Assembly: GCA_903944345.1 (NCBI GenBank)
Contig: CAJARJ010000013.1
Coordinates: 1-58,671 of the forward strand
Origin: Candidatus Omnitrophota bacterium
Lineage (GTDB): Bacteria; Omnitrophota; Gorgyraeia; Zapsychrales; Fredricksoniimonadaceae
Direction: 5' to 3'
Length of the DNA stretch: 58,671 nt
The position numbers and the translations under genes are program-made. Below, one piece after another: positions 7,867 through 58,671 of the stretch; position 1 is the stretch's first letter; the number at the start of each line of letters is the position of its first letter. The notes under the pieces were generated by a model. The model worked only from the letters and a program-made list of their open reading frames with translations. It was not told the origin of the DNA and ran no database searches.

Positions 7867-7875
7867 ATACGGAAC

Positions 7876-12515: not shown

Positions 12516-12753
12516 AATGCTGATCTCCTTCCGAATAACTTTCACACACCGGACACTTGAGGACTGTACTCTGGCAATACTCTACAGTAAGGCTGCCACA
12601 ATAAGGACAGCGCCAAACTCGCCCTTTGAGCGAATCTTTTGTCAGTTGCTCCCTGCGACGAACGTCAGTCTCTATCCACCACGCCAAAAAAAAGAAAGTC
12701 AAAACAACCAGCAAATAAATACCAACAGCCGGGAAAAATGCCACCCGGATCAT
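12496..12753 (-). CDS. Small membrane protein with zinc ribbon
   Basis: 85 residues. A membrane helix (AVGIYLLVVLTFFFLAWWI, about 8-27) is followed by a basic segment and a compact two-knuckle zinc ribbon, CPYCGSLTVEYCQ...LKCPVCESY. I do not recognise a named family. The ATG overlaps the stop of the upstream gene by four bases (ATGA) and its own end overlaps the PilX-like gene, so it is a true member of the operon. The zinc ribbon should lie in the cytoplasm if the positive-inside rule holds (basic DVRRREQ behind the helix). Function unknown. Confidence 0.75.
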   Translation of the reverse strand: MIRVAFFPAVGIYLLVVLTFFFLAWWIETDVRRREQLTKDSLKGRVWRCPYCGSLTVEYCQSTVLKCPVCESYSEGDQHYVCQKE

Positions 12754-13190: not shown

Positions 13191-13191
13191 G

Positions 13192-13593: not shown

Positions 13594-13599
13594 AACCGG

Positions 13600-14268: not shown

Positions 14269-14290
14269 ACTGCTCTCCTCGGTTTAACGA

Positions 14291-16774: not shown

Positions 16775-16823
16775 GCGGTAATTATACCAAATAAAATTTT
16801 GATCCGGAGAAAATCGATAAAAA

Positions 16824-37104: not shown

Positions 37105-37308
37105 TTAACGGGGAACGGTATCGCCAAGCCCCAGAAAGGTTGGTACAGATATTGTCATGGGATGAATACCGATAATCTCAGGGGTGAGGCCAGATACTTC
37201 TTGCAATTTCCGGCTCAAGTCCGGGTTAAAGTTTAAGCCGTCGTCCGCTGCATAGTAATAGGTCTCAATATTCATTCTGTCACGCGTTAATGCAATACCC
37301 CCAGGCGT
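37105..37308 (-). other. C-module copy 2 (2,838-residue protein)
   Basis: Begins TPGGIALTRDRMNIE and ends GLTPEIIGIHPMTISVP then TFLGLG. Similar to the other three copies in spacing and in the PEII-I-P pattern. Confidence 0.8.
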
Positions 37309-43300: not shown

Positions 43301-45621
43301 AGTGTATTCGTTACTCTGTCCAGCAAAAATGTCCCGTCAAGACTTTCATCAACAACCACATAAGGACGAACGCTGCTCATATCAACAGGCCATATCGAGG
43401 CCACAAGGCCTGGTTTGACTTCCCTGGCCAGAACGACGGGGCCTGCTTCCTGCAAACGCAAATCGCCAGACCCCCTGGCAAACGCCATTAAATTATCGAA
43501 ATCAACCTCTTCCCCGGTGAATGCCTCAAACAACGACGGGATAGTCCCGATAAGAAACCCCAGACCGTTATAAATTTCCGCCTTGGCGGCTTCTGCGCGT
43601 TTTAGAAATTCGTTCTTTGCGCCCGGATATTTAAATCGATAATTGGCATCAATCGCCTCTTTTCCTTTCAACAACGAATAATCAATATCTGGCACGGCAG
43701 CCCCATGTTCATCATACGTTTTACCAGATCCGGTAAAATTAAGAACAATATCCGCGCTTTCAATAGCCCCGTTAATATCGGCCATACCGACAGCAAGAAT
43801 ATGCCAAGGTTGACCGGTCTCAAGAATGTCCTGTTCCAACCCACGAGCAACCTCGGGATCCAGATCAGTCAGAACAATCCGGGCATCGGGCGCGTTATTA
43901 AAAATCGCATTGGCTACCGAGCGCGTAGCCCCGCCGGATCCTAAAATAACAATTTTCTTCCCGGCAAGAGATCTTCCAAGGTACCTTGTGTACCAATAAA
44001 CCCACCCCTCCCCGTCAGAAGTTAATCCCAGATGCCTGTCACCGCCTAGCTTGACATACCCGTTGACTGATTTGGCGGCTTTGGCCGTCTGCGTTAACTC
44101 GTCATCACGCAACTTATCGTAAATAATTTCTTTATGCGGAGAAGTAACGTTAAAACCGGCGACTTTGGAACTTTGCTCGCCTAAATGATAAACCTGATCC
44201 AGTTCGGATTCTTTTGTATTGACAGGAAGAAACAGAAGATTGCTGCCTATACTTTGTAATGCACGATTGAAGATCAGATAATATTTGGATTTCTCCGCTG
44301 TCGGATCCGCAGGCCTGACCTTGTTTCCGATATGCAGAATAAACTTTGTCTTTTCCGTAACCTCGTATCCAAGTGCGTCGGCTTCTTTCGCCAAACGCTC
44401 TTCGAATAGAACGACATCGCTTCCTATTTCGCTCCATTCAAGGAAAGTCCCTTGAGCGGCATCAATTGTTAAAAAATTCGATTCAACAACTACCGCTCTG
44501 TCAGATACGCCTTCCGGCAATTGCCCGCGATCTTTTATTTTTCCATAAACCTCTCTGATACGATTTAATCCCGCTCCGCCGGAAAAATATTTTCGCACTA
44601 CAACTTTCTCTGTCGACGGATCATAATCTTCCTTAATGTAATTATAAGCTCCCTTCCTGAACGCTTCGAGATACTGTGCCCAAATCTTCTCCTTCACCGC
44701 CCTGTCATCGATGTCTATGCCGACGGTCTTCTCCTGATCAACGTAAACTTGGCCCAAAAGGCTCTCTTTGATCCTATCCTTGTACCAGAGCGCCAGAACA
44801 AGCGAATGATAAATCTGTCTTAACTGGGCAAAATTCTTTCCTTCGTTTATTTCTTTCTCAAGGACAGGAATCAGTACCTTGCGAACAATCTCCGCGCCAA
44901 GTGTATTGATCTGTCCTGAACTTGCCGCTGATTGTGAGACATCAGCGTTCTTGTCCAAAGCCAGATAGTCCTCCTCCAGCAGAACCTTCATGCGCCCTTC
45001 AACCACATAAGCCGCACTTTTGTTCTCATAAACCACAGCTTTTTCGGGAACAATCCAGACCTTGTTAAAGGTATCAACAGGAACATCAACGGAACCAAAT
45101 TTTCGCCGGGCTTCGGCATAAACTTCATCCCAGAATTCTTTACCGATCTTTTCTTCAGGATAAAACAAAGACGAAGCGATCTGCTTGAGAACATAATCCT
45201 GCGCCAACAAATCCCGGCCCATTTCCGTGATGCCAAAGGCCTCCGTAATAATCCGGTCTTGTTCATATGGCGAAAGGTTGACCCATAAATCGGTCTCAGG
45301 AACAGTTACAGCAGCCAGAAAATACCTGATCAAACGCGCAGATTCTGCTTTCAAATCCTGTACGCTCGCCTCTGATTCGCCTTTATCAAGAATAAAATCA
45401 AGCCGGAAAGGATTATCAGGATAAACCTTAACTCCTTTAAGAAGAGGCTGTGTAAAAGCGGGGCTCAAATCCAGACGAACACCGGGTTGAGGAAGAAAAA
45501 AAGCCTCTGCAGCATAAACAAGCTGAAGAGGCGGAATAAAAGCATCTAACAGAAAAGCGAACAGAACAACTACACAAACTGCTTTCCGAATAATAAAGTT
45601 TACCCCGGAAAAAATAGGCAT
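37105..45621 (-). CDS. Giant exported multidomain protein with AroE-, phosphatase- and transketolase-like domains
   Basis: 2,838 residues in one frame. AGAGG precedes the ATG at 45621, 8 bases behind the preceding gene. In order: signal peptide (about 10-38, ending VYAAEA); N-module (about 40-350, to RKYFSGG); shikimate-dehydrogenase-like domain (about 420-710); a region I cannot assign (about 710-1175); two histidine-phosphatase-like domains (about 1180-1350 and 1430-1600); transketolase-like TPP, Pyr and C-terminal domains (about 1670-2290); a helical part with SDLDLVYVG, a nucleotidyltransferase-like motif (about 2505); C-module (about 2772-2838). No transmembrane cluster after the signal peptide. 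Its enzyme-like domains are normally cytoplasmic proteins, so finding them behind an export signal is odd. Some catalytic residues are altered. Function unknown. Confidence 0.9.
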   Translation of the reverse strand: MPIFSGVNFIIRKAVCVVVLFAFLLDAFIPPLQLVYAAEAFFLPQPGVRLDLSPAFTQPLLKGVKVYPDNPFRLDFILDKGESEASVQDLKAESARLIRYFLAAVTVPETDLWVNLSPYEQDRIITEAFGITEMGRDLLAQDYVLKQIASSLFYPEEKIGKEFWDEVYAEARRKFGSVDVPVDTFNKVWIVPEKAVVYENKSAAYVVEGRMKVLLEEDYLALDKNADVSQSAASSGQINTLGAEIVRKVLIPVLEKEINEGKNFAQLRQIYHSLVLALWYKDRIKESLLGQVYVDQEKTVGIDIDDRAVKEKIWAQYLEAFRKGAYNYIKEDYDPSTEKVVVRKYFSGGAGLNRIREVYGKIKDRGQLPEGVSDRAVVVESNFLTIDAAQGTFLEWSEIGSDVVLFEERLAKEADALGYEVTEKTKFILHIGNKVRPADPTAEKSKYYLIFNRALQSIGSNLLFLPVNTKESELDQVYHLGEQSSKVAGFNVTSPHKEIIYDKLRDDELTQTAKAAKSVNGYVKLGGDRHLGLTSDGEGWVYWYTRYLGRSLAGKKIVILGSGGATRSVANAIFNNAPDARIVLTDLDPEVARGLEQDILETGQPWHILAVGMADINGAIESADIVLNFTGSGKTYDEHGAAVPDIDYSLLKGKEAIDANYRFKYPGAKNEFLKRAEAAKAEIYNGLGFLIGTIPSLFEAFTGEEVDFDNLMAFARGSGDLRLQEAGPVVLAREVKPGLVASIWPVDMSSVRPYVVVDESLDGTFLLDRVTNTLFDKDGEKIPFDQQRSQVAFVDREQEGRKSLLGEFQRLHPDLELVGVTSNENIFYNKPIVTVIRDQKGRYRIFHALNEEIKQGVNYPMYVVRSNGAGIEEHVSFRLDESGAYVSVFINGIEVKEDDNIQWATGIQPILNEQGFIAPDGNNGYDRLYDDPKHLFVMPKISIPDYMSGGVFFMADQLLLPGRINRYFQDPDQPQDFDLSYSITDDDGRSIKLPLDQERLEPLLKDMGYRAGPGSPHKTKEPLYWFREDGMGRKYLSLRLQENGYPFHIVAETKDHQILEIVMRGETIDGYGKGGSTIRETAEWLREQGVLKAGILDQGKTLRLTVGSKSFVKQTLEPEGMQRAASIIVYARTKDRSKGLKDSTLVNVEGLDDLLKLDPETGKIFYADRSKALRLKIPVYAVRHAQSVAQTLAGTLHGSSADEIDRLSAFGEQQAYRAAPDIYEQMHSKGLFDRDVLVLTSQLLRSQQTAEPFLQYVNSRTGRSLAVETTSLINELNVGVQGYVPVDQLTAEMIRVRDEVRNFNANIRLPGGESYIDLLRRAKAFIDHVNGHYEGKELIIFTHSLFMTALRIVQGIGDWETQDGSIAWNKNKPENTGLWAFESSLSVDSAQKSQEEKARSLGFQVIDQESGHIKYGNHFQSFDLGDTELVVVPHGLTDGDVEGVLQVSKDVDDPRFELNAEGQRQVEEGAKVIWQQYADIIRGGQAAFYRSGTKRTAQTAEAFLKYVGSLAPGLLEDVRVSDAIRMNLGSWEGTTKAQIDSVLSPDERVRAKQFIKKNALIGPKNGQSFVDYLVTVKEFLDSIKEKHPGQTVIVFGHGIFIKAVKVLLQTNDVIDNPYLDWDSGARSSYKLGMPLVMNKIPRRGQGVHNGITAWRKEKSGLHSVEELAAYAANARLEGLRIWRQYKGPLAGAMSPVDLYTALFMDYVDREKFVSGHPQRLRIVPKGSAGSTFYSVAAFAGLIDPDRVLDLDKDDLEIVPTRFGLSDASLYKIGTSFEQGIGLALAGKIKQMEYPVIVFLTDGGLQIGVDHQAKFAAHMGLNNLTVVVDINRLQNAYRVEDVDPTLSLDANGHLSRLIALWEAYGWDVTEIDGHDFRQIRAAYDKIGQGQRPLVILAKTTKGRGMTEIEGQLNFSHKFPSEDDYRHALTALQGTVDEYREQGYDIKYPVWTPVQRMAIDNQGLALPNSDLAIDQDPMQFEKPLTEQGKLYLEKFLKSWLKEFVSINPNQVLIINTDNPSPFELSTPVRSSTSDSPFIFAGINERFALNLAGGMSLEGLAPIYIGPAAHMPVNAEDWKLLGLGKQNVLVIARSSGSALSYWGPGHLVYEDIELFKNPWCQVLQPAHVQDLLLILENYYYAYPQGKPTYLRMQEVSPFDLPASLFDTVDKRKRIFQDGFYMADAYEGSTQPVVFIVSGKTVKEALDAGKKLREAGLSYKIINVLNLSSVNGSLLKSSVAGAVKIVTAIDALPQSLSSLVYDALPEQRSIVAAFGVSDGGSANPEDEIFSENKIDAQSLASFAVKETVLRDMVNKYLSALSESEEAVLVRDSWDQALTDLDNGVMRNLVKVYLQVGPDITARLVRSMVGLAEDVADPWSANYLISDIVSLFGVKLLGDNIPGLRMLVRDHEIRRISLSSRSLSGDFTRLSNDMSLFELREAVRHFKSEQKAAVLSRNGYREVARNVQDRNIRFMKELIPLLISRIWGEIGVSLSSKALLFFNDIKTAASDLDLVYVGPEQEMVDRRLTELCNLLGIKRDLSAVTLINQALKENRGKAFSGYQYGGNIEPVSINGADFGDFYQSQLSLENPVSARKMYEDRLRSDLLKRWDDDVVQGRFRIENLKSVYGAAVNDVLKALVLKFGLSYGTYGDKFWSQLALYLASDEIAFLRDIYELINQARSLSQYVTERRWDVADERVADIVTYLMTGQGVRNYQQAVLNAKPKIDALMQKYLNDTVSVTADRYQGRADKNWDAIANLYFLIIKDRMGDSAQSVITPGGIALTRDRMNIETYYYAADDGLNFNPDLSRKLQEVSGLTPEIIGIHPMTISVPTFLGLGDTVPR
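38900..40620 (-). other. Transketolase-like segment of the giant protein
   Basis: N-terminal part VEELAAYAANARLEG and LAGAMSPVDLYTALF; TPP region PKGSAGSTFYSVAAFAGL, FLTDGGLQIGVDHQ and LTVVVDINRLQN; Pyr region FAGINERFALNLAGGMS with the catalytic-type Glu kept, and GPGHLVYEDIELFKNP; C-terminal region VVFIVSGKTVKEALDAG. The usual SKGH His is Ser (PKGSA) and the GDG of the TPP site reads TDGG, so cofactor binding is doubtful. Confidence 0.8.
40820..41345 (-). other. Histidine-phosphatase-like domain 2 of the giant protein
   Basis: LVVVPHGLTDGD stands where VRHGET is usual, so the nucleophile His stays but its Arg neighbour is Pro. FYRSGTKRTAQTAEAF and VIVFGHGIFIKAV supply the second Arg and second His. 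Confidence 0.75.
41560..42090 (-). other. Histidine-phosphatase-like domain 1 of the giant protein
   Basis: YAVRHAQSVAQTL (RHG motif with Ala), LTSQLLRSQQTAEPF, LINELNVGVQGY, LPGGESYIDLL and IIFTHSLFMTALR: the full Arg-His, Arg, Glu, His set of the phosphoglycerate-mutase-like superfamily. Confidence 0.85.
43490..44360 (-). other. Shikimate-dehydrogenase-like (AroE) domain of the giant protein
   Basis: Substrate domain pieces IFNRALQSIGSNLLFLPV and FNVTSPHKEIIYDKL (NVTxPxK with the catalytic-type Lys), AKSVNGYVK, then the nucleotide loop VILGSGGATRSVANAIF and NGLGFLIGTIPSLFEAFTG. The order and spacing are those of AroE. Confidence 0.85.
44575..45621 (-). other. N-module copy 2 with extension (2,838-residue protein)
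   Basis: FFLPQPGVRLDLSP, KVYPDNPFRLDFILDKG, DLWVNLSPYEQDRI, MGRDLLAQDYVLKQ, PVDTFNKVWIVPEKAVVYE; then an extension shared only with copy 3: QIYHSLVLALWYKDRI and YNYIKEDYDP to RKYFSGG. Confidence 0.92.
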
Positions 45622-45630: not shown

Positions 45631-45807
45631 TTAGTTAAGCGCACCCATTACAGTTAAAGGACTTTGCACAGGCGTAATACTGATGATCTCCGGCTTGAGA
45701 CCGGTCAATCCGCCGGCCATGACCGCACGCATGGCGGCATCGTTAAAATAAACTTTGGCGCCCCCGGACTTCTGCGCGACAGCGATGTCCTGGATATCGA
45801 TACCACC
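45631..45807 (-). other. C-module copy 3 (720-residue frame)
   Basis: Begins KGGIDIQDIAVAQKSGG and ends GLTGLKPEIISITPVQSPL then TVMGALN. Confidence 0.75.
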
Positions 45808-47793
45808 CTTCATGGCAGCATCGGCGGTGCCTGCTGCTGACCAGGCGGCATAGGCCTGTTGATACTCTTGCGCCTGAGCCGGAAGTGCCCCGGCATTCAT
45901 AAACGCCAAAGCCGGAATCAGACCGATCTCAAGAACGTTTTTAACTCTTGCACCAAACACACCTCCGGCGGCTTCAATAAGCAAATCAGGATACCGCTGA
46001 CGCAACGCTGTAACCTCGGGTAAAGGATCTTCAAAATCGTTTCCTTTCAGAAAATCCGAAACGACCCTTAACTGAATGCCGTCGGTACCGGCGGCAAGAG
46101 TGTCTTCTGCAAGTTGCAAAAGATCGCCGTCCGTCTTGCCGATAGCATTGATGAAGGCTGTATCGGGATGCGCCGCTTTAAAGACGCGCACATCATCCGG
46201 AGAGAAATAACCAAGTGTGACTACAAAGTCTGTTCCCTGAGGCAGCTCGTCACTGGCCGCGGAAATAAAATATCCGGCGATGGCCTCGGGATCAGAAACC
46301 TTGAAAGCGCTGAGAGCTTGCGGATCATCAAAAACGGAAACAATGCCCTTCTGCCACAACTCCCCGGCCAGCTGAACCAGCTCATCCGGGGAAGACCCCG
46401 CAAAAGTCGCCTTGCCTGTTGTTGTGTGAAGACCGGACATCATCCCGGCATGCTTGATGCGATCGGAAATCGATTGAGCTAAGTCAAATTGATTATAATC
46501 CCTAGAATCAGTTTCTACTCGACCAATCATTGGCCGAGGCTCAGAATTCCCATCACCCCCTGTTCTTGAAATTATTTTAAAAACAGCCGGCGACCACTGT
46601 TCAAAAACAGGATCCCATACATCTAATCCTCCGTCAGCATATGAAAGATACGATAAACGATACTTGACATAATTTTCTGCAGGTTTAATCAACATAACAT
46701 ACGTATTCCCACGTGGATGACCTAAAGCCCACAAAACATCTGCAATATCATTATATCGCTCTGCACATTCCCCACTAAATAAAACATATCCCTTTCTATT
46801 GTAATAAGAAATATCGGACTCTGCCTTCTCCAAAGCCTTTATTAAATTTGGAACTAATGAATGAATTGCAGGCATATCTCGACGAATAATATGACGCAAA
46901 GTCTTCCAAGCCCCAAAAGAAAGAAGCATCTTTGGTCTAATCTCATAAGCCAAATATTTATATAAAGGATAAGAAATAATCCCCACCAAAAACGAAAATC
47001 CTCCCACCTGTAACATCAAGGAATTATCAGCAAAAAAGTTTAGAAGTTCTTGCCACATAGCAAAATCCTGATTCCCGGCCAGCGCCTGAATCGCGGGGTC
47101 ATTCATTAATTCAACAGCCACAGCGTCCATGGTCATCGGCAGGGTAAGCCCTAACGCGGTCATAGCCTGCCACTTCCTGTCAATACCGTGAGCCATGGCA
47201 AAATCAAGGCCATCCACCCTCTGGATCACGTTTCTTAAAGCGGTCGGCGCAGAAGCAGCAGAAAGTTCATCCGCCACGTCCTTATCCACTCCTCGATCAG
47301 CATATACCCGCTGAGAGGCTTGTTTCTGACGCATAAGAGATTCTCTGAATCCCAGAAGATTCTTTAAACGCTGTGGCGGCAGATATTCCAAGGGATTGGG
47401 TGTAAAGTTGACGGCTCCGAGCAGATCTAGCGCTGCAAGCTGCACTGATAGCGATTGATCTGTCAGAAAAAGAACTCTGATTCTTTCTTTTAAAGAGTTG
47501 TCAATTGTTATATCTTTCCCCTTTAAAAGGTAACGCAAAGTATTTAACGCCAGGGTTCTTTGCTCGGAGCTAACAGCCCCAAGCCATTCAAGAGATTTAT
47601 TAAACAAATAAACAATATCCTGTTCGCGTTTCCCCGCGGACCAAAGCAATTTAACAAGCAAAACAGAAAGCTTCCAGGCCCGGTCGGTTAGATCCAGATC
47701 ATGATCTTTCTTCCCTTTGAACCAGGTAAACATTGCATTATCAGCTGACGCAGTATCTTTATCCAAATCTTGTTGCATGGCCCTGTCTGACAA
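45631..47793 (-). CDS. C-terminal half-like protein, 720 residues, frame -1 to its upstream neighbour
   Basis: The frame opens after a TAA at 47806-47808. Possible starts are TTG at 47793 or ATG at 47778 (MQQDLDKDTA), neither with a good ribosome site, which suggests it is not an independent gene. It has a helical region (about 20-200), one or two membrane helices (QVGGFSFLVGIISYPLYKYLA, about 265-285), an AT-rich middle part, a C-terminal alpha/beta region that could be TIM-barrel-like (SDFLKGNDFEDPLPEV; LLIEAAGGVFGARVKNV), and the C-module. It lacks the signal peptide and N-module that the upstream frame supplies. Read together the two would form one protein of about 1,310 residues. Function unknown. 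Confidence 0.75.
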   Translation of the reverse strand: MSDRAMQQDLDKDTASADNAMFTWFKGKKDHDLDLTDRAWKLSVLLVKLLWSAGKREQDIVYLFNKSLEWLGAVSSEQRTLALNTLRYLLKGKDITIDNSLKERIRVLFLTDQSLSVQLAALDLLGAVNFTPNPLEYLPPQRLKNLLGFRESLMRQKQASQRVYADRGVDKDVADELSAASAPTALRNVIQRVDGLDFAMAHGIDRKWQAMTALGLTLPMTMDAVAVELMNDPAIQALAGNQDFAMWQELLNFFADNSLMLQVGGFSFLVGIISYPLYKYLAYEIRPKMLLSFGAWKTLRHIIRRDMPAIHSLVPNLIKALEKAESDISYYNRKGYVLFSGECAERYNDIADVLWALGHPRGNTYVMLIKPAENYVKYRLSYLSYADGGLDVWDPVFEQWSPAVFKIISRTGGDGNSEPRPMIGRVETDSRDYNQFDLAQSISDRIKHAGMMSGLHTTTGKATFAGSSPDELVQLAGELWQKGIVSVFDDPQALSAFKVSDPEAIAGYFISAASDELPQGTDFVVTLGYFSPDDVRVFKAAHPDTAFINAIGKTDGDLLQLAEDTLAAGTDGIQLRVVSDFLKGNDFEDPLPEVTALRQRYPDLLIEAAGGVFGARVKNVLEIGLIPALAFMNAGALPAQAQEYQQAYAAWSAAGTADAAMKGGIDIQDIAVAQKSGGAKVYFNDAAMRAVMAGGLTGLKPEIISITPVQSPLTVMGALN

Positions 47794-49547
47794 GACATAG
47801 ACATATTAATCCTGAAAGTCGAGGCCTTCTGATTAAAGCGATCAATATGCCATAAGATATAGGCTGCATTTTCAGTACTCGCTCCGATTCTGATACGCAA
47901 AGGAACCCTGACCCCATTCGCCAAAGCGATTGTCCGGGTAGAAATCTGTTCCGGTGGCGTGTCAATCCCCAAAGTATAATGCATTGAAGCAATTGAGGGA
48001 GTCCCCTGATAATCCGCAACACTAACAACTGCTACCGTGCGGGCTTTACCTGTAGCATCAAAGGCAATACCAACGGCACTGCTGAAAGGAATAATATCAT
48101 CTCCAATATTCTTGAGTGAAAAGTTAACATATAAATCATTATCCTGCGGAACATAAGATGTATCTACTCCCGAAGAAGTTATCTGAAGACCTCGATCTAC
48201 GCTTCCGGTGGAATATATCTGATTTTCAGCAACACTTTCTATCTTCTCGCCCTCAGATTTAAACCAGTTTGAACTCACAACCAAAGCGGCGACTTCAAGA
48301 ATTGCCAACACCCCAATAACTGCTTTTGTGCCTGTTCTCATAGCACTGTCAGTAGTTGATGAAAAAAGCTGCAAAGATTCAACCGGAGGCTCCTGCACCT
48401 GTTCCGTTACAACATTCAACCTGAAATCAAGATCAAATATTTTTCCGACTGGATTGGTTAGCAATGCAGCATTACGGGTGCGCACCAACGGCTGACTTTT
48501 CATTGAGAAATCAAAAAATCCTCCTGAAAAATATTTACGCGGCAATATTTCTCCGGTCAGCGTATCAGCCTCTTCCTTCACATAATCAAAAGCTCCTTTT
48601 TTAAACGCCGAAATATAACGCTGATAAATTTCTTCCTTAAGATTGATTTCGTCCGCAATTACACCTGCCACATGATTCTGTCCGACATAGACAGACTCCA
48701 TCAAAGAGTTCCTGACCTGCTCTTTGTACCATTTTGCCAAAATAGCGGCATGATAAATCTGACGAGTCACGGCAAACTGCCGGCCTTCGTTCACCTCTTT
48801 CTCGAGCGCAGGAAGAATGACCGAGCGCATCATGTCTTTGGCCAGGTCGCGCGCGCTACTGTCAAAAGAGTCTGGCACGTCTGCCGTCTGGCCAGTCGCC
48901 TGATGATCCTGATCCAGCATAAGCTTGAGCCGGGCTTCGGTAATGTAGACCCGGTTGCCGTTCTGGTAAACCTCGGCCTTATCGGGAGAAATCCAGACCT
49001 TGTTAAAGGTATCGACAGGAATACTGGTTGTGCCAAACTTCTCTCTGGCCTGGGCATACACCCTGACCCAGAACTCTTTGCCGAGGCCATTCTCGGGGTA
49101 GATCAGCGAAGCCGATAATTGCTTGAGAATATAATCCTGCGCCAGCATATCGCGGCCCAAAACCGTCCGGCCCAGGTCATTTTCTATAATACGATCCTGT
49201 TCATACGGAGACAGATTGACCCAAAGCTGATCTTCGGGCACGGTAACCGCCGCCAGAAAGTACTGGGCCATTCGCTCGCTTTGTTCTCTGACAAGCTTCT
49301 GATCGGCGGTGTCGTGGCCGGAATCAACAATCAGATCAAACGCCAAAGGGTTATCGGGATGCAGGACCAGCCCCTTGGCCAGAACGGGAACAAAAGACGT
49401 TGAGGGCAGAACCATAGCGCCCGGTTCGGGCAAAGAAGAGACAAAAAGACTCTGGGCGTAGGCCAGGTTTTGCCCGCACACCAACACACAGGCCAGAACA
49501 GACGAAACAATACGTTTGAGCGAACGAGAAAATGACGATTTAAACAT
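47688..49547 (-). CDS. Exported N-module protein, N-terminal half-like, 619 residues
   Basis: ATG at 49547 with AGAGGGG before it. Signal peptide MFKSSFSRSLKRIVSSVLAC to AYAQS, then N-module: LPEPGAMVLPSTSF, PDNPLAFDLIVDSG, LWVNLSPYEQDRIIE, GRDMLAQDYILKQ, PVDTFNKVWISPDKA, with extension to RKYFSGGFFDF (about 340). A membrane helix follows (GTKAVIGVLAILEVAALVVS, about 410-430), then a beta-rich region (about 455-590, DLYVNFSLKNIGDD) that could be an Ig-like or CARDB-like domain. The last 34 codons read the 720-residue frame out of phase and look like non-coding shadow. No C-module. Therefore probably the front half of one split gene. Confidence 0.8.
   Translation of the reverse strand: MFKSSFSRSLKRIVSSVLACVLVCGQNLAYAQSLFVSSLPEPGAMVLPSTSFVPVLAKGLVLHPDNPLAFDLIVDSGHDTADQKLVREQSERMAQYFLAAVTVPEDQLWVNLSPYEQDRIIENDLGRTVLGRDMLAQDYILKQLSASLIYPENGLGKEFWVRVYAQAREKFGTTSIPVDTFNKVWISPDKAEVYQNGNRVYITEARLKLMLDQDHQATGQTADVPDSFDSSARDLAKDMMRSVILPALEKEVNEGRQFAVTRQIYHAAILAKWYKEQVRNSLMESVYVGQNHVAGVIADEINLKEEIYQRYISAFKKGAFDYVKEEADTLTGEILPRKYFSGGFFDFSMKSQPLVRTRNAALLTNPVGKIFDLDFRLNVVTEQVQEPPVESLQLFSSTTDSAMRTGTKAVIGVLAILEVAALVVSSNWFKSEGEKIESVAENQIYSTGSVDRGLQITSSGVDTSYVPQDNDLYVNFSLKNIGDDIIPFSSAVGIAFDATGKARTVAVVSVADYQGTPSIASMHYTLGIDTPPEQISTRTIALANGVRVPLRIRIGASTENAAYILWHIDRFNQKASTFRINMSMSCQTGPCNKIWIKILRQLIMQCLPGSKGRKIMIWI
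47712..47718 (-). other. Possible -1 slippery heptamer in the overlap
   Basis: A-AAG-GGA in the frame of the upstream protein fits X-XXY-YYZ and slips to AAA-GGG, which is the frame of the 720-residue protein. It is only a motif match; I see no proven stimulatory structure. Confidence 0.2.
48520..49547 (-). other. N-module copy 3 with extension (619-residue frame)
   Basis: Carries all N-module blocks plus the extension RQIYHAAILAKWYKEQV, YVGQNHVAGV, AFDYVKEEAD and RKYFSGG in common with copy 2. Confidence 0.92.
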
Positions 49548-49616: not shown

Positions 49617-49814
49617 CTACAGCGCGGCACCGCGCATCAGTTCCATCAATACGGGGACGTTTCTACTGGTGACAGGGGAAATGTCACGGATCACCGGAGT
49701 AAGGCCGGCAATGCTGACCACTTCAGGTGTCTGCATATCTGCCGGAAGAGGCATGCCTTCTCCGTCTACTTTAAGATTGATAACCAGACGTTTTTCGTCA
49801 AGACTGATACCGCC
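49617..49814 (-). other. C-module copy 4 (GT48 giant)
   Basis: Begins LGGISLDEKRLVINLKVDGEG and ends AGLTPVIRDISPVTSRNVP; the PEII of the others reads PVIR here. Confidence 0.75.
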
Positions 49815-52800
49815 AAGCTGATCGGGATCCTGTTGAAGGCCTATGGCCGGCTTGAGGTCTTGTGGGGCCGCCGCCGCATCAGGCAGGCTATCAAGTTTGC
49901 TTTCCAGATACCGCTGATACTGCTCAAGCGCTCTTCCCCGGGCATATGCCTGAAGCATCAACCCCTGTTCAATGCGATCCGTCTGTTCCTGAAGCCTGGC
50001 AGCTGCGTCATAATCCGATTGCGCCTTGATCTGGGCGGCATCTGTAACAAGCTCAACAGGAGCCTGTGCCGGAGATGCAGGCGCAAGTGCTGTTGCTGGT
50101 ATCGGTGCAGCTGTAGCCGCAGGGGCGGAAACAGAAGGAACAATTTCCTTGCTTCTTATCCTTAATGCCAGATCAGCCTCTTCTTTGCTATGCTTAAGCA
50201 GACCCATAAGGAAAGAACCGATAACAGAAGCCCCCGCAACAAAAGCCAGAAAAGCCAATGATCCGGTCAACGCCCCTGTTACAAGAAGAAGTCCTTTGAT
50301 CCCCAACGCCACGCCGGCAAGCCAAACAAAATCCGTCCCATGAAAATCCGACTTAAATAATGCTCTTATTTTTAAACCAAACTCATACGGCAAAGCGACA
50401 AGAAAAGAAGAGAAAATACCTATCGCACCCAATGTGCCCATAACAAAAGTTGCGGCAAACCGCAAATTAAACCAGGTATAAGCATTCTGAACCTTAGCTC
50501 TGTGCGCATGCAACAAATACGTTGTGCCCATAAATATTCCCAAAGAAACAAACCCCGCAATGGAAGCGGATACCAACGGAACCCCGCCGGCAAAAAACGC
50601 CAAAGCAGAAACAGCCAAAGCCCCTGCTCCGCTCTTGAAAAAAGCTTTTTGCCAGATCTCATTGAAAGCAGGCGCGGATGCTTTCAGGTCAAACATACTG
50701 ATAGCCAGATAAACTGTCAAGAATGCCATAGTCAGATTAAACGCCCAGATACCCATCCCAAAGAAAATCAGTGCAGAGACTCCACCTGCTATCAAGCCTG
50801 CAAAGCCAACCCACGACCGGAATCCCTTGGATGTTTCAGCCACAAACAGATTATAGCTGTCTTTAACTTTCCCTGGGCCGCCTATTTTTCCGGCTGTATC
50901 TTTCAAGTCCTCCCCATACTGCCGCCACCAATTTCCTAACCCCGTTGTAACAGGAGTGGATCCGGCATTCATCAGGAACGGCGCCATAACCGCCGACAAT
51001 GCGAGCAAAATCGGGAAGAATGACCAAACAATCCCCGCGCTTTGCCAGATAAAAATAGCCATTCCCGTTATAATAACAATAGGCACCACCCAAGTGAAGC
51101 CGGAAACATTAATAAACTGATAAAGATCTCCCTTCATCACATCCCCTGGAACAGCAAAATGGGAAAATGGTTTATAATGCTCCACGCCCAACCGCCGGCC
51201 TGTTGCAATATAGTCTCCGTTGTTAACCATGGCTTTCTTGACTCCGACAGAAAATGCATTAAGGATCAAAGCCATATAGTTTAACGCCAGTCGGGGAAAG
51301 AGAAAGATAAATTCCGCTGTCCCTCGAATAAGCCCTTTTTCGTGCACCAATTGTGCCCAGCCTGTCAGCGCAATCACCTGAGACAAAAGCAAGCCCAAAA
51401 GACCAAAGAGAAGTTCTCCCGGAAACGTTACAAAAAGACTGATACCAAACAACCCAACCACCGTCAAATAAGACAACAGAGACAAAACAATGATCGGTTT
51501 GCGCTGGAAATAACCAATCGAGGCCACCGCATGCAAAAACGAACGGGAAAACCCAACAATAGGTGACGTATTATGACGGTACAGAGTATCGGAAACCGCC
51601 TGTTCTCCGGCTCCGGCACCGAACTTGTCGGATATCCCCATAAGTCCGGCAAAAACCCCTTCGCGCCCCTTGGAGGCCTGCATGATCTCGCGATTGAGCA
51701 CCAGTTCTCCATAAAGCGTTCCTTTATAAGCACCAAAAATATCTTCATTGACCCAGGGAGCGCTGAAAAGACCAAAATGCACAAAAGAATGATTTCTTGT
51801 ATAGTCAGGGTGTCCATAATGGTAGCGAATCCCGAAGATATCCAGCACACGCTGAACAATCGTGACAAATGTATGGTCGCCAAAGGCGTGCACCGCGCCC
51901 GCGGGAGTAGAATCCTTGGTATTAATGTCTTCCGGAAACCCAACTATGGCCACACGTGGATTCTTGAACTCCTGCATAAGATTTGGAGCTTTAAAAATTT
52001 CTTCCAGGTACATATCCTGATTCATATCCATTAACTGCATGATCTCCCCGCGCACAAAGCGGGAAATATTGTTTTGCGCCATGGGCTTTCCCTGACCGAC
52101 AAACATCTTCTCAGGAACCCTGATAATTGCAGAACGAACCATTTTCCCGTCTTCAACCTGCCTCCCGTTCTCCTGACGATAAAACTGTTTGAAAAGGGTC
52201 TCACCTTCCGCTTCGTTAACAGGGGCATCCTGTGAACGATATTCGACAGAAGCACCATATTCAGATTGCGAATCTTTAAGACTATAAACTATTTTTATAC
52301 CGGGATATTGCTTCACAAGATAATTAACAGAATCAAACTGTAATTTCTGTTCAGGCGAGGCATCCAAAAGGAGTCCCTTTTGTTCGGAATCCACAAAATC
52401 GCCATAAGGAGCCGCGGCAACAACATATTCCCATTTACGGGAAACTATCTCTTCGATCAGCTGTTCATACGTCTTTTCCTTGTCGCGCTCATCATCATAG
52501 AAAAGATAATTTTCCCTGATCGCTTCAATTGTAGGATAATTTGTCTTGGCCAACCAAAGATACATCGTACGGTAATTCATCATGCCACGAGCTGTTCTTG
52601 CAAAAGCCTGATAGCGGTAAGAGGCCCAAAGGCGAACTTGCATTTCGAGATTTTCATCGTACATCCGGTACTCGACTGCGTCCTGTAAAATTTTCCAGAT
52701 ACGCGCATTTTTCTTACTCTTGTTTATATCATCTCCAAGATCGAAGGCCTCCAATGTAGGCAGTCCATCAAACTTCTCCAAAACCAGACCATCTGCATTG

Positions 52801-55800
52801 ATATATCCGTTAGCTGACAAAACATCAGAAATCATTTGCGCACTTACTTTATCAGAGGATGCAACTTCAAAATCCTCAACAGAAACTTTTCTTTTCTTGG
52901 GTTGATAACCGAGAATATCTCCATATTTTAAATCCCGCATCATCTGAATATCTTTTTTCCTGTCCTCGTAACCGGAAGCCAAAGGATCAGACTCATTCTC
53001 CGCATCAAGGCGAGCCACAAAATTATCCCATTCCTGAGGATACCGGGTAATCATATAGGTTAGATAGGTGGAGCCTGTCAGATATTTCTGGTTAAGGCCA
53101 TCGTGCCCGCCTGGGAACTCTTTAGTAGAGAAAGGATAAATCCATGTCTCCTTCCCTACCGGAGTAAATCCACTAAATAAAGGCAGATTTTCCCAGGTCG
53201 GAGTTTTATCCATATCCATAAAATACGTTGAAAGGGTAAACTCTATTCTGGATGCCACCTGGTCCACTCTGGGAGGTTTGCTCAAGTCTGGAACACCGGT
53301 AACCTGTCCGACAAGAAAATCTTCGGCACTTTCCTGCTCGATCACAAAACGATAGGCGTTTCTTTCCTTATCGGAAACAAGATCATCCTGATAAAACTGA
53401 TCAATGATATGATTCCACGCCCGGGCAAAAACAAGAATTTTCTGTTCTTCAGTGACAGGAACTTTTCCCTCCGCGCTGTTTATGGTAGAAGGGATCATCT
53501 TGTCCATAAATTGACGGACGGCTCCCAGCGGATCGACAACAACAACTCCGTTCTTTATGGAAACGCCGAACTTTTCAACAACCGTATCGCCGCCGATTTT
53601 CTCCAGTCCCCAGCCCGTCGAACGATTCAGAATACCAAGCCCCGCGTTGGCTATGTTCTTTAAAAAAAGAAGGCCCCAACCGCCGCCGGCCAGGATACCG
53701 AAATAAAGCCAGGGAATAAAACCAAAGAAGACACCGGCAAGAAGTGCACCGGTAACAAGTAAATGAGGCCGCTGATTGCGTACAAATACACGACCCCAAT
53801 CAAAAAAGTTGTGACCCGTTTCTTCTCCCTGTGACAGAGAATGCCCCCCCCAGGACTTGATCCTGTTTGATCCACTCTTTTTGGCTTCCCAGTACCCTAA
53901 AAGTATTTCCGTCGCGTAAAAATAAGCGAAGATATCCAGCAAAAGTATAAAAACAATCGGCAAGAGCGCAATAACTGTCCACGCTACAGGTGACAAAGCC
54001 GTCAGTCCAAGACCCAGCCATGCCGGAGCAACAAATGAGCCGCTCCAAATAGATGAGACAGCAGGAATGATCCATTTAAAAATAGCCACATTCGAGACAA
54101 ATTTAACCGCAAGCAACCAAGCTGTCATAAGCGTTGCGCGGTTCTGTCTTTGTTTGGTAATTTCCATCCATTTGGCATCCGGCTGATCCAGTGCCCCTAC
54201 TTCAGGACGAACAAGACCATCTGCCCAGGATTGGCCATCCCTGACCTCATCTGAAACGTTATAAGTTTTTCCGTCTTTGACTTCTCGCCATTGCCTGTCC
54301 TTACTCTCGATTAACCAATAAGTTCCCCTGAGAACTGCTGTCAGTCCGCCCAGCCAGGCACCCCAGGTCAGCCACACCGGCAAGGCAAGACCTGACAAGG
54401 AAGCTGTCATGACAAGCAAAGCGGTGACTGCTCCGGCACCAACCAGAAAGTCCGGAGCTTTTCTCAAAAGAGACTGTGCTGGAAGCTTTTCATTAAACCA
54501 CTCGGAGCCTTTGAGCAGAGACCAAGCCACCCCCATAACACCGGCAACACCTGCCACCCATCCCCATACAGGAACAGTTACGGTGGCAAGCAGAACACCC
54601 GCCGAAGCCACAAGAGATGTTCCCAACAAGACACCAACAATGTATTTGAAATTAACGATCTGACGAAACCAACCTGCAGCACCCAGAGGTTTCGTTGCTA
54701 TATCGTAAAAAGCTTTATGAATATGTGCGTTAACACTCTTATTTAGGCTCTTTGGAATTTTTTGTGGGTAAAGGGACTCTAATATCGCTCTCTTGAGCCT
54801 TTTACCTTCCGACATCCCGAGCAATCTTGTCCACTCTTGTTGGTCTATAAACTTTCTTGATTCATTACTAATTCCCTTAATAATGGCCTCAATTGCTTTC
54901 GCCTGTTCAGCGCTTAGCTTGTTGTCTTGTTTGAGTTTAGTAAAGATTACAAAAGGTTCTGTGCTCTTGTTCAACCACTCAACTGCGTCCTTAACAGCGG
55001 ATACCGAAGGAACCGTGATGTCCGCATCCTTAACAATTTCTTTAATCAAGTCATTTACTTTGTCCAAAGAGTTACTAAATTCACCCACTTGAAACTCCAA
55101 AGGACCTTGTTTTATCTCTTCCAGACCGCCTTTGTAGTGATACCATTCGAGCCAGTTGACGTGACGAAACAAATATTCCACATCATCCACATGAAGATAA
55201 TCTATCTTTGTAACCCCTTGTCTAAAATGCCGCGCAACCAGCCTATCCCACATATCCATTTCTTCGGTAATTAATGTTCCCAACGGACTCTTGGAAATTT
55301 CCGCCCCAGGCAGGCCTTTTAGTGTCTGGAATTCCTGGTTCACTTTATAAAACCAGTACGCCTTGGGGGCCATGGTCACCGTATAAAAACGAGAAGAAGC
55401 CATCTGAACCAGTTCCATCAAAAATATTTCGTCAAGGCCGAACTTATCAATAGCCGCCAGTTCTTCTTCAAACTGCTTGACCTGCCCCTTAGATGCCATA
55501 ACACGGCCCCAGACCGGCTTGAACCACACTGTCTTGTAAGGACGGAACCATTCTTGGGCAATTTCTTCCATTGTCTTTCCGGCAGCCAGTTTATTCTGAA
55601 CCTGGGCAATCACTTTCTTTTTAACCGAGACGACTATGCCCTGCTGAAAACCGAAAGCAGTATTGCCAGATCCGGCAAGAGCGTTGACCCGGGATTCCAC
55701 ATCCCGGATTTCCTGCTTTAACTGATCGCGCTTTGCTTTTGCCTTGTTGCGTTCTTCAGGAGAAAGATTCTTGGGCCCGGTTCCCGCCTCTGGGGAGCTG

Positions 55801-58671
55801 GCAGCGTTCTTATCGGACTGTGCCTTGACTTTCTTCTGGGCTCGCCATGCATTCCACTTGCTTGGAACCATCAGCACGGCCAGGAAAGAAAGGATACCCC
55901 AGAAAAATCCATGCCAGATACCCTTGTCATTGAGCCAGTTTCTCCAGATGTTCGGACGGAACCTGTCGACCAGTTTACCGTCAACGTATTCACTCCGCTG
56001 CAGAAAAACTTTATCATAAGCTAAGCCCTCTCCCTCATACGCATCGAGGGTGACCTTCTGGGCAAACGGAGCAGGTCCATCCGCCTCTTGTCTTTCAACA
56101 ATATCAAAATGCGGATCACCGTAAGATTTTGTCAGAACAACCTTGCCATCATCAAGAACATTAAAGGCCTGAACTGGGCGACGGAATTCGGAATTAAGAT
56201 CATAAATAATAACATCCGTATTGTTCAATATGTTACCCAGCGAACCTCTGGCAATACTGATATTAACACGTGCAAAACGCTCTGCCAAAAGTTGACCGCC
56301 GGGTGTGTAAACCGCCTTGCGCTTCAACTTCGAGTCCATGACAATATAGTCGTAACCTCTGTAGGTTGTTGGCTCCGTCTGCCCGTTGACAGGGTCAAAA
56401 ACCACTGTCATCGGGTTATATCCGATCCGCTCTGTAACAGTAGCTACTCTATCTCCCAAAGACATTGCCTCGAGCGGAATGTGACCTTTGTTCTCATCAA
56501 ACGGAAAACGAACAACATCCTGAGAATATGGAACAAAATCACCGTTTGACTTTGGTGAATACATCGCGACTTCTTCAAGGTCTCCGGATTCACGATCCAC
56601 TAGGACAATACCTGGAAGAATCCCTCCTCTGAGAGAAACCGTCTCCGGATTATGCCCCCCGTTAAAATTGACAACAAGATTCTGCGCTCCTTCAAGAAAC
56701 CAGAGATTCATAACCATCTTCCCATCAGAATAAACAGAAACAATATCGCGCCCGCGGCTGTCGTGCGGAATAAGATATCTCTTGATTGGGAGATCAGACT
56801 CGCGGATATATTTTCCATCCTTTCCAACCAGCCGGGGCGTTTCAACATTCTCCGTCAGCACAGTCCCTGGAGTGATGCCGTGCTTGGCCAGATGTGACCA
56901 CATGTCAGTAGATGTACCCGGAAGACGCCTTCTCACGAAATCTGCAAATGTTTCTTCGAAATTCCTGCCCAGAATCTCTCCGGTCTTGATCCGGCTCTGT
57001 GTTGTTTCAACTGTCGCCCTGATCTGATTACCGGGTGTCAGCTTGAAAGACTTTGTAACCATGCCTGTACGCGCGTCAAACTCGAAAGGAATAAGCTTTT
57101 CTATGACGTGCCCGGACTCTTCTCGCACAGTAATAAATTTTCGCTCCTGATATTCATAAGGAAGGCGATAGTCTCTTGTTGTAACGAAATCGTGTGTGGT
57201 CACAAAAGATTCGTTTAATACGGTATCTTTCGTAATACCAGAACGTGCCAAGGCTTCGCGAAGCTCGGGATTATCAAAAAACGACGAATCTTTAAAATGA
57301 TCAAAGTCCTGAAGCGCGGCAGCACCTCCTCCGTCAATTTTCCATACAAAGTCCCATCCTGATTCCCTTTGACGCGCAATCTCGGCCTTCAGTTCTTCGG
57401 GCATATCCCGGAGTTCCAGCTCAACATGACCGTCTACAAAAGAAGATCCGCCCGAATGAATAAAAACGGCCCGTGCGACATGTTTTCCAGGCATCATGGA
57501 CGAATAAAGATGAATGTCCTTGAAAGACATGGAAAGTCTGGACTCGGACTGAAGAGCAGCGACAATATCTTCATCACGTTCAATCCCGCTGTTGAGCTTT
57601 ACGAAACCACTCTCGTCTGTTGTAATCGATCCGTCGTCAAAGCGGGTTCTGCGAACAGACGCAAACCAATCCTTATCCTCTATGGAACGCATATCGACGT
57701 AATAACCGTTTCCGTTACTCTCGTCGAACCAGAAGAAAGCCGTTACATTCTCCACCTTTCTGCCATCGATAATTAATGGACGAAGGATATCGGTATCCGA
57801 CTGAACAGAACCAAGGCTATTCTGCGAAGAGACATTCTGATCCCGGACTGTATAATGCTCACGAATGCCGTTCCTGTCGAAATAAACAACTTCTCCCTGC
57901 CTGAAACGTTTGCTGTAACGCTTGACCAGTGTTTCAACCGGCTCTCCATCCGCCCCACGGGACTTGATTATTTCATAAACATCTTCAGTAACTGTCGAAG
58001 CATTAACGCTCTGTTCGGCAGATTTGGTCACATGCAGCCATTCGCTTTTGCTGTCCGCCTGATAATGGACATAACCTGTTTCTGGTACAGATGTCCGTCT
58101 GAGGACTGTCGACTCCGCCTTTAGAGCATTTACCGTCCCGAATCCAGGAAGAGCATAAATCGCTGAGGTATTGTTCCCGCCAATAACTTCGACTTTACTA
58201 CCATCAATATCCTTGGCTAAGTAAACCCTTGCAGTGACGTTTCCATTCTTGTCCTGCATAAACAGCTCTGTAGATTTCCTGCGAATTTCTTCATGCGTTT
58301 CAGAATTCTGTAAATCCGCCAAGGTGACGAACTGCGCACCTTTCCCATCCTTAAGAACCATCAGATAGTGTTCAGCAAGAAACTTCTCAACATCCTGGAC
58401 AGGAATAACCGAACTCCGCGAATAGTCCTTCCCCCAAAGCTTGACAACCCGTCCGGAAAGTTCACCTTTCTCATCAAATTTCAGAACTTCAACAGCATCA
58501 CGCAGAATTAATTCCTGATTGGCATTTAAAGTTTCCAAATTAGCAAACTCGGCGGCCAACTCCTTGCCAGCTTCTTTTGTGTAATCTGAATTAGGAGTTG
58601 CGGACTTCCAACGCACCAGAAAATAATTATCCATTAATTCTTCAATAGTTGAGGGAAGTACCCGCGGTTGT
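49617..58671 (-). CDS. Giant membrane protein with GT48 glucan-synthase domain, N-terminus outside window
   Basis: The frame is open to the right edge, so the ATG at 58634 is internal and the protein exceeds 3,017 residues. Numbering from that ATG: a long beta-rich region with YD-repeat-like segments (about 1-890); one helix (about 900-920); a charged, coiled-coil region (about 940-1330); a first membrane cluster of about eight helices (about 1330-1660); a large soluble domain with the GT48 signatures (about 1780-2380); a second membrane cluster of about ten or more helices (about 2380-2820); an Ala/Pro-rich linker (about 2835-2865); a coiled coil and the C-module. The membrane-soluble-membrane order is that of fungal Fks1 and plant callose synthase, which polymerise UDP-glucose to 1,3-beta-glucan and pass it through the membrane. 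Stop at 49617. Confidence 0.92.
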   Translation of the reverse strand, partial: QPRVLPSTIEELMDNYFLVRWKSATPNSDYTKEAGKELAAEFANLETLNANQELILRDAVEVLKFDEKGELSGRVVKLWGKDYSRSSVIPVQDVEKFLAEHYLMVLKDGKGAQFVTLADLQNSETHEEIRRKSTELFMQDKNGNVTARVYLAKDIDGSKVEVIGGNNTSAIYALPGFGTVNALKAESTVLRRTSVPETGYVHYQADSKSEWLHVTKSAEQSVNASTVTEDVYEIIKSRGADGEPVETLVKRYSKRFRQGEVVYFDRNGIREHYTVRDQNVSSQNSLGSVQSDTDILRPLIIDGRKVENVTAFFWFDESNGNGYYVDMRSIEDKDWFASVRRTRFDDGSITTDESGFVKLNSGIERDEDIVAALQSESRLSMSFKDIHLYSSMMPGKHVARAVFIHSGGSSFVDGHVELELRDMPEELKAEIARQRESGWDFVWKIDGGGAAALQDFDHFKDSSFFDNPELREALARSGITKDTVLNESFVTTHDFVTTRDYRLPYEYQERKFITVREESGHVIEKLIPFEFDARTGMVTKSFKLTPGNQIRATVETTQSRIKTGEILGRNFEETFADFVRRRLPGTSTDMWSHLAKHGITPGTVLTENVETPRLVGKDGKYIRESDLPIKRYLIPHDSRGRDIVSVYSDGKMVMNLWFLEGAQNLVVNFNGGHNPETVSLRGGILPGIVLVDRESGDLEEVAMYSPKSNGDFVPYSQDVVRFPFDENKGHIPLEAMSLGDRVATVTERIGYNPMTVVFDPVNGQTEPTTYRGYDYIVMDSKLKRKAVYTPGGQLLAERFARVNISIARGSLGNILNNTDVIIYDLNSEFRRPVQAFNVLDDGKVVLTKSYGDPHFDIVERQEADGPAPFAQKVTLDAYEGEGLAYDKVFLQRSEYVDGKLVDRFRPNIWRNWLNDKGIWHGFFWGILSFLAVLMVPSKWNAWRAQKKVKAQSDKNAASSPEAGTGPKNLSPEERNKAKAKRDQLKQEIRDVESRVNALAGSGNTAFGFQQGIVVSVKKKVIAQVQNKLAAGKTMEEIAQEWFRPYKTVWFKPVWGRVMASKGQVKQFEEELAAIDKFGLDEIFLMELVQMASSRFYTVTMAPKAYWFYKVNQEFQTLKGLPGAEISKSPLGTLITEEMDMWDRLVARHFRQGVTKIDYLHVDDVEYLFRHVNWLEWYHYKGGLEEIKQGPLEFQVGEFSNSLDKVNDLIKEIVKDADITVPSVSAVKDAVEWLNKSTEPFVIFTKLKQDNKLSAEQAKAIEAIIKGISNESRKFIDQQEWTRLLGMSEGKRLKRAILESLYPQKIPKSLNKSVNAHIHKAFYDIATKPLGAAGWFRQIVNFKYIVGVLLGTSLVASAGVLLATVTVPVWGWVAGVAGVMGVAWSLLKGSEWFNEKLPAQSLLRKAPDFLVGAGAVTALLVMTASLSGLALPVWLTWGAWLGGLTAVLRGTYWLIESKDRQWREVKDGKTYNVSDEVRDGQSWADGLVRPEVGALDQPDAKWMEITKQRQNRATLMTAWLLAVKFVSNVAIFKWIIPAVSSIWSGSFVAPAWLGLGLTALSPVAWTVIALLPIVFILLLDIFAYFYATEILLGYWEAKKSGSNRIKSWGGHSLSQGEETGHNFFDWGRVFVRNQRPHLLVTGALLAGVFFGFIPWLYFGILAGGGWGLLFLKNIANAGLGILNRSTGWGLEKIGGDTVVEKFGVSIKNGVVVVDPLGAVRQFMDKMIPSTINSAEGKVPVTEEQKILVFARAWNHIIDQFYQDDLVSDKERNAYRFVIEQESAEDFLVGQVTGVPDLSKPPRVDQVASRIEFTLSTYFMDMDKTPTWENLPLFSGFTPVGKETWIYPFSTKEFPGGHDGLNQKYLTGSTYLTYMITRYPQEWDNFVARLDAENESDPLASGYEDRKKDIQMMRDLKYGDILGYQPKKRKVSVEDFEVASSDKVSAQMISDVLSANGYINADGLVLEKFDGLPTLEAFDLGDDINKSKKNARIWKILQDAVEYRMYDENLEMQVRLWASYRYQAFARTARGMMNYRTMYLWLAKTNYPTIEAIRENYLFYDDERDKEKTYEQLIEEIVSRKWEYVVAAAPYGDFVDSEQKGLLLDASPEQKLQFDSVNYLVKQYPGIKIVYSLKDSQSEYGASVEYRSQDAPVNEAEGETLFKQFYRQENGRQVEDGKMVRSAIIRVPEKMFVGQGKPMAQNNISRFVRGEIMQLMDMNQDMYLEEIFKAPNLMQEFKNPRVAIVGFPEDINTKDSTPAGAVHAFGDHTFVTIVQRVLDIFGIRYHYGHPDYTRNHSFVHFGLFSAPWVNEDIFGAYKGTLYGELVLNREIMQASKGREGVFAGLMGISDKFGAGAGEQAVSDTLYRHNTSPIVGFSRSFLHAVASIGYFQRKPIIVLSLLSYLTVVGLFGISLFVTFPGELLFGLLGLLLSQVIALTGWAQLVHEKGLIRGTAEFIFLFPRLALNYMALILNAFSVGVKKAMVNNGDYIATGRRLGVEHYKPFSHFAVPGDVMKGDLYQFINVSGFTWVVPIVIITGMAIFIWQSAGIVWSFFPILLALSAVMAPFLMNAGSTPVTTGLGNWWRQYGEDLKDTAGKIGGPGKVKDSYNLFVAETSKGFRSWVGFAGLIAGGVSALIFFGMGIWAFNLTMAFLTVYLAISMFDLKASAPAFNEIWQKAFFKSGAGALAVSALAFFAGGVPLVSASIAGFVSLGIFMGTTYLLHAHRAKVQNAYTWFNLRFAATFVMGTLGAIGIFSSFLVALPYEFGLKIRALFKSDFHGTDFVWLAGVALGIKGLLLVTGALTGSLAFLAFVAGASVIGSFLMGLLKHSKEEADLALRIRSKEIVPSVSAPAATAAPIPATALAPASPAQAPVELVTDAAQIKAQSDYDAAARLQEQTDRIEQGLMLQAYARGRALEQYQRYLESKLDSLPDAAAAPQDLKPAIGLQQDPDQLGGISLDEKRLVINLKVDGEGMPLPADMQTPEVVSIAGLTPVIRDISPVTSRNVPVLMELMRGAAL
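51500..53290 (-). other. GT48 (1,3-beta-glucan/callose synthase) catalytic domain
   Basis: In order: RIEFTLSTYFMD with FSGFTPVGKETW; RYPQEWDNFVARLD; VRLWASYRYQAFARTARGMM then NYR; KWEYVVAAAPYGDF; QYPGIKIVYSLKD; GQGKPMAQNNISRFVRGE; MQLMDMNQDMYLEE; VAIVGFPEDI; TFVTIVQRVLDIFGIRYHYG then HPD; NEDIFGAYKG; ASKGREGVFAG; KFGAGAGEQAVSDTLYRH; and GFSRSFLHAVASIGYF. Each matches a block of Fks1/CalS (RT-RG-M-Y, NQ[N]...RGE, D-NQD-Y-EE, HYGHPD, [NS]EDI-AG, KGRD-G, G-GEQ-LSR). Confidence 0.93.

Follow-up and report, generated by a model that had tools for sequence, protein, structure and literature searches.

We found that a 58,671-nucleotide (nt) stretch of DNA from a Candidatus Omnitrophota bacterium (assembly GCA_903944345.1, contig CAJARJ010000013.1; hereafter, the window) carries on its minus strand the catalytic core of a glycosyltransferase family 48 (GT48) synthase, embedded in a giant open reading frame (ORF). 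The frame extends from contig position 49617 to 65891 with its ATG at 65888, encodes 5,424 amino acids (aa), and runs past the window edge; its product is referred to here as the window protein. The core is homologous to that of the fungal synthase Fks1, retains most of the published catalytic positions, and is predicted to share its fold. We consider it fairly probable that a bacterial GT48 synthase here forms part of a giant cell-envelope protein, which would extrude a polymer, most likely 1,3-β-glucan, and carry an attached ectodomain that processes or anchors the chain.

At the sequence level, membership of the window protein in GT48 is established. The Pfam model PF02364 (Glucan_synthase) scored 187.6 bits (curated cut-off, 37.2; E = 4.7e-55) over residues 1806–2405 of the in-window frame and was the only model over its cut-off, with no GT2 Pfam model matching the window protein and no NCBIfam model matching the GT48 region. 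A single-sequence phmmer search of the region against the PDB returned only Fks1/Gsc2 (E = 2e-24), and a profile built from alignment A1 (25 Omnitrophota sequences) matched Fks1 residues 560–1494, including the HYGHPD, NEDI, and TGR blocks, with an E-value of 1.6e-107. Homologues align with the window protein over aa 2460–5250. An earlier sequence-only reading had placed a GT48 domain at this position on the basis of the blocks RTARGMMNY, RGE..DMNQDMYLEE, HYGHPD, NEDIFGAY, KGRE, and GAGEQ and had proposed the Pfam search and a structural comparison with Fks1 as checks; we found all of these blocks, in that order, and both checks bear the assignment out.

Specifically, an AlphaFold2 model of aa 3890–5060, computed with alignment A1, reached a predicted local distance difference test (pLDDT) value of 78 and a predicted template modelling (pTM) score of 0.82. 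In a Foldseek search of the PDB, the 13 best matches were all Fks1/Fks2 (E = 3e-22 to 6e-14), followed by BcsA and CesA cellulose synthases with E-values of 1e-7 or weaker. Global TM-scores were modest (0.33–0.46 over an alignment of ~1,000 residues), perhaps because the relative placement of domains differs across this length.

The catalytic and UDP-glucose-binding positions of Fks1 are Y849, E851, K1082, N1085, D1102-A-N1104, and E1221-D1222 (PMC12715860). The window protein keeps the equivalents of E851, K1082, D1102, E1221, and D1222, i.e., five of the seven published positions, and has DMN in place of DxD at the D1102/N1104 equivalents, which is the DxN form found in Fks1. Throughout alignment A1, the equivalents of K1082, D1102, N1104, D1106, and D1222 are invariant, and those of E851 and E1221 are nearly so. 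Since catalytic residues are retained among sequences down to ~25–30% identity, this conservation argues for selection on catalysis.

Next, we explored how widely the family occurs in a sample of 384 Omnitrophota genomes and 14 control genomes. PF02364 was found in 36 of the Omnitrophota genomes (~10%; 32 over the cut-off), which belong to many families, and in none of the 14 controls. The view of GT48 as essentially eukaryotic, on which the sequence-only reading had relied, therefore needs correction. Profile search, conserved catalytic residues, the predicted fold, the layout of membrane segments, and numerous independent assemblies all support the presence of a GT48 catalytic core on a bacterial chromosome. 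The frames that bear it are often giant (18,052, 21,496, 23,462, 32,526, and 42,913 aa), and the 21,496-aa frame fills its whole 64,491-bp contig. No GT48 relative was found among viral contigs (IMG/VR), and GT48 in Omnitrophota did not turn up in the literature covered, preprints and most subscription papers lying outside that search. Two candidate results were set aside. A sequence labeled as a "Planctomycetales" metagenome-assembled genome (locus L007, genome G389) was dropped as a second phylum after a draw of genomes around G389 returned genomes that seem identical to those of the Omnitrophota draw, with coinciding coordinates and scores. A count of 60 of 384 genomes obtained with the Omnitrophota profile was rejected as a GT48 frequency, since its weakest matches have DxD and a GT2 Pfam model matches one of them. 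Several frames were unusual in themselves. One giant frame (L084, genome G247) contains two GT48-like stretches, at aa 642–1503 (strongly diverged) and aa 4607–5563. The 42,913-aa frame with GT48 is a single open frame (G079:C2), and another, of 70,450 aa (G107:C2), has GH158-like modules and no GT48 match listed. In Ca. Zapsychrus exili (L006), ectodomain and GT48 are distributed over two frames that overlap (1–8793 and 8726–17053), which may be separate genes or reflect an assembly frameshift.

Fks1 consists of an accessory (AC) domain, transmembrane segments TM1–6, the GT domain, and TM7–17 (PMC12715860), and a similar order can be recognized in the window protein (Table 1). Residues are numbered from the codon after the upstream stop, so that the ATG is residue 2. 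The N-terminus, MFQRLLHSRCFKMIAIFVLVAYLSSIPSQSGYAQ, is by eye a typical signal peptide. Hydropathy revealed one helix at aa 3324–3342, followed by a basic stretch, and two hydrophobic clusters at aa 3751–4077 and 4800–5219 that flank the GT48 core, as the sequence-only reading had noted. With hydropathy as the guide and not a dedicated topology predictor, the counts of ~6 segments before and 11 after the GT domain are approximate; Fks1 has 6 and 11. The C-terminal cluster includes a YIATGR block that aligns with YISTGRGF of Fks1. With the Fks1 layout as a guide, the GT domain would face the cytosol, with the N-terminal ~3,300 residues extracytoplasmic. The AC-domain model FKS1_dom1 (PF14288) had no match in the window protein and, in the relative from G389, scored 18.8 bits at the corresponding location, below its cut-off of 27, and a PDB profile search with the predicted cytosolic domain ahead of the first membrane cluster gave no Fks1 match. 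Homology of this domain to AC is thus only hinted at, via the same region of the G389 sequence.

The predicted extracytoplasmic region contains an α/α barrel (aa 1985–2395) that lies beyond the window. A PDB profile search linked it to glycoside hydrolase family 76 (GH76; E = 6.5e-4), and a low-confidence AlphaFold2 model (pLDDT 61, pTM 0.68) led Foldseek to GH76 as well (E = 1e-7), which suggests that the barrel is nearest to GH76 in sequence and fold. No GH76 catalytic Asp-Asp pair was seen in the aligned stretch. A homologue of this barrel lies equally far upstream of GT48 in G071 (41% identity) and in G118 and G015.

Relatives of the window protein carry a different module, a triosephosphate isomerase (TIM) barrel. 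This barrel lies in the same frame ~1,000–1,450 aa upstream of GT48 in five genomes (G071, G204, G004, G079, and G231), upstream in-frame also in G069, on each side of GT48 in G385, and downstream in G386. Its best match in a PDB profile search was GH158 (9oro, E = 5e-17; BuGH158 6pal, E = 3.5e-10), a family with endo-1,3-β-glucanase activity (PMC7553746), and it also matches GH2 and, below the cut-off, GH72. The similarity to these endo-1,3-β-glucanases (6pal and 9oro) is remote; what the two have in common is the TIM barrel and the Glu positions, with two invariant Glu at the putative catalytic places and the putative acid/base in a GNE motif. Since 251 of the 384 genomes carry such a barrel, also without GT48, the association lends support but is not specific, and we rejected the barrel as a GT48 marker. 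Two more GH158-like barrels occur in the window's own genome: L126 (contig C7), within a repeat-rich, surface-like protein of 1,432 aa, and L127 (contig C4), within a secreted protein of 767 aa.

One relative appears to carry a nucleotide-sugar domain of its own: the GT48 frame of G389 (L068) contains a UDPGP domain (PF01704; E = 4.6e-43) with the signature GGSGSRLG..PK, ~740 aa after the end of the GT48 profile match. The same frame also contains radical SAM and methyltransferase domains and a second, weak UDPGP-like copy.

In the mechanism that we propose, the signal-like N-terminus would export the ~3,300 residues, and the single helix would return the chain to the cytosol. The accessory region, the ~6 segments, the GT-A catalytic domain, and the ~11 segments would together make up a synthase and channel resembling Fks1. 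The catalytic domain would polymerize glucose from a nucleotide sugar using DxN, as in Fks1, without the classical DxD, and the polymer, most likely 1,3-β-glucan, would be pushed through the channel. The covalently attached ectodomain, with its putatively sugar-active barrel, may then trim, modify, or anchor the chain at the cell surface.

Several observations weigh against 1,3-β-glucan as the product and would suit a GT48-type membrane synthase that is active but makes something else, i.e., a polymer of different or mixed linkage or of a non-glucose sugar. Identity to FKS1 is ~27%, and the window protein has Gly at the Y849 position and Ala at the N1085 position, which is Asn in most relatives. 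The GH76-like barrel (GH76 being an α-1,6-mannanase family) does not point to β-1,3-glucan, and the GH158-like module, common as it is in the phylum, is absent from the window protein. Regarding precursor supply, the window's own genome (95.5% complete) has no match over the curated GalU cut-off, and no UDPGP was found, though the controls gave no signal either in that search. Five nucleotidyltransferases were found in it, GlgC, RfbF, GlmU, an HddC-like protein, and one unassigned, and the best unassigned one scores 86 bits against the AglF cut-off of 400. A 253-aa nucleotidyltransferase (L129, contig C9) is a candidate for making UDP-glucose. PF01704, the family of the G389 domain, also covers UDP-N-acetylhexosamine pyrophosphorylases. 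On the other hand, all characterized GT48 enzymes make 1,3-β-glucan to our knowledge, and the barrels of several relatives are closest to GH158 endo-1,3-glucanases; on balance, we regard another product as a rather doubtful alternative, albeit one that carries some weight. It is improbable that the GT48 fold is catalytically dead and serves as the membrane anchor or scaffold of a giant adhesion protein. Such a role might be proposed because giant ORFs of Omnitrophota have been interpreted as adhesins (PMC10066038) and because a neighboring secreted 2,838-aa protein has isolated enzyme-like domains, so that enzyme folds may be reused in this lineage. Nearly all divergent relatives retain the E, K, D-x-N, E-D, and K-x-R-E positions, and such conservation is not expected of a dead scaffold.

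A recent transfer from a eukaryote, or an assembly contamination, would accord with the description of GT48 from fungi, plants, green algae, and stramenopiles (PMC12715860, PMC3797821, and PMC7965971), but we consider it very improbable. Bacterial genes lie on both sides, with rplM, argC, argJ, argD, pilB, truA, asd, and fabF on the window's contig, and these genes, together with relatives in uninterrupted frames in 36 of the 384 genomes and in many families, rule out eukaryotic contamination, in line with what the sequence-only reading had argued from housekeeping genes alongside. Moreover, divergence among the bacterial sequences (down to ~25–30% identity) is as great as their divergence from FKS1. 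Among the Omnitrophota giants, we distinguished clade A (DxNQD/HYGHPD/NED), grade B (DxN with YGHSA/SED), and grade C (DxD). In a posterior mean site frequency (PMSF) tree rooted on two GT2-like grade C sequences, a remote outgroup, with L114 left out and a single, long-branched eukaryotic sequence (yeast FKS1), FKS1 joined clade A with 100/100 support. An approximately unbiased (AU) test rejected bacterial A and B as one clade apart from FKS1 (p = 0.002) but did not reject clade A apart from FKS1 (p = 0.187); FKS1 is accordingly nested in or sister to clade A and placed inside the bacterial set, not the reverse. Four weak GT48-profile matches in giant frames (L114, L115, L117, and L122) form a possible bridge between GT2 and GT48 in sequence; L115, L117, and L122 have DxD, not DxN, and L114 weakly matches a GT2 Pfam model (2e-4).

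Compared with fungal Fks1/Gsc2 (PDB 7xe4, 8jzn, and 9wzu), the window protein is alike in its PF02364 core, DxN, ED, and K1082/E851 equivalents, predicted GT-A fold, transmembrane clusters flanking the core, and TGR block. It differs in having an additional exported N-terminal region of ~3,300 aa and an additional transmembrane segment, in that an AC domain is not recognizable, and in that no Rho1 counterpart is known. The GT2 curdlan and cellulose synthases (CrdS and BcsA) have the same "cellulose synthase-like" core fold, whereas the window protein has no GT2 Pfam match and carries DxN instead of DxD. The wording of EGKPENQNH, DMNQD, and RFHYGHPD in relatives presumably resembles that of plant CalS, and the sequence-only reading had seen several blocks as closer to plant than to fungal forms. 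An unverified plant core had 31% identity to the window protein, versus 29% for FKS1, which is no meaningful difference; it was not used as evidence. The giant proteins described from the same phylum, such as the 39,678-aa protein of Ca. Velamenicoccus archaeovorus (Seymour et al. 2023; PMC10066038), are likewise very large, with many transmembrane helices. The frame studied here, open over 16.3 kb, is below the 20-kb mark used for giant ORFs in that study, and its relatives, at 7,000–43,000 aa, are comparable with those giants, many exceeding 20 kb. Neither GT48 nor glucan appears in the main text of that paper, which reports that few domains could be annotated in giant ORFs, whereas a defined catalytic core is identified here.

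Two neighboring loci on the minus strand of the window also encode large products. The 2,838-aa protein (37105–45621) is apparently secreted and shares 46% identity with the giant GT48 protein over its N-terminal ~320 aa; it carries His_Phos_1, Shikimate_dh_N, and weak transketolase matches, i.e., domains like those of cytosolic enzymes, here in an exported protein. ORFs 45631–47793 and 47688–49547, downstream of the giant gene, overlap by ~105 nt in different frames and look like a single gene of ~1,300 aa interrupted by a frameshift; its N-terminus again carries the signal and the DIPVDTFNKVWI domain.

Table 1. Features of the giant GT48 gene, in window coordinates unless noted otherwise
Feature	Position	Strand	Basis or remark
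α/α barrel, aa 1985–2395	contig 58707–59939, outside window	−	PDB profile search, AlphaFold2, Foldseek
In-window part of giant GT48 ORF	49617..58670	−	continues upstream beyond window
C-terminal part of ~3,300-aa predicted extracytoplasmic region	55923..58671	−	hydropathy; region starts outside window after signal-like peptide
Single transmembrane helix ahead of synthase, then basic stretch (C-terminal side predicted cytosolic)	55866..55922	−	hydropathy
Predicted cytosolic domain before transmembrane cluster, at place of Fks1 AC domain	54642..55865	−	position
N-terminal transmembrane cluster (~6 segments), putative Fks1 TM1–6 counterpart	53661..54641	−	hydropathy; profile alignment extends to Fks1 residue 560
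GT48 catalytic core, PF02364 positions 9–505	51456..53255	−	Pfam match, AlphaFold2 model, Foldseek
Glu, Fks1 E851 equivalent (UDP-glucose binding in Fks1)	53148..53150	−	alignment; role from PMC12715860
Lys, Fks1 K1082 equivalent, invariant in A1	52086..52088	−	alignment
DMNQD, counterpart of Fks1 DAN motif (D1102-A-N1104) plus D1106	52014..52028	−	alignment
HYGHPD block	51804..51821	−	sequence
Glu-Asp in NEDIFG, counterpart of catalytic ED motif E1221-D1222	51741..51746	−	alignment
KGRE block	51660..51671	−	alignment
C-terminal transmembrane cluster (~11 segments), putative Fks1 TM7–17 counterpart	50235..51494	−	hydropathy, profile alignment

These findings extend GT48, which includes the echinocandin target and the plant callose enzyme, into bacteria, and the bacterial sequences are deep enough to bear on the origin of the eukaryotic enzyme and on the relation between GT48 and GT2. 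As a conjecture, which we hold to be unlikely, GT48 may have arisen in Omnitrophota-type bacteria from GT2-like ancestors, by way of DxD, then DxN/YGHSA, then DxNQD/HYGHPD, all of which are extant in giants, and the fungal and plant synthases would descend from it. Bacterial GT48 would then be the motor of single-polypeptide glucan-building machines with their own glucanase-like ectodomains and, once, their own nucleotide-sugar-making domain. The Omnitrophota giants, among the largest known proteins, had almost no assignable function; with a conserved synthase core and intact catalytic residues, a function of such a giant protein is now testable.

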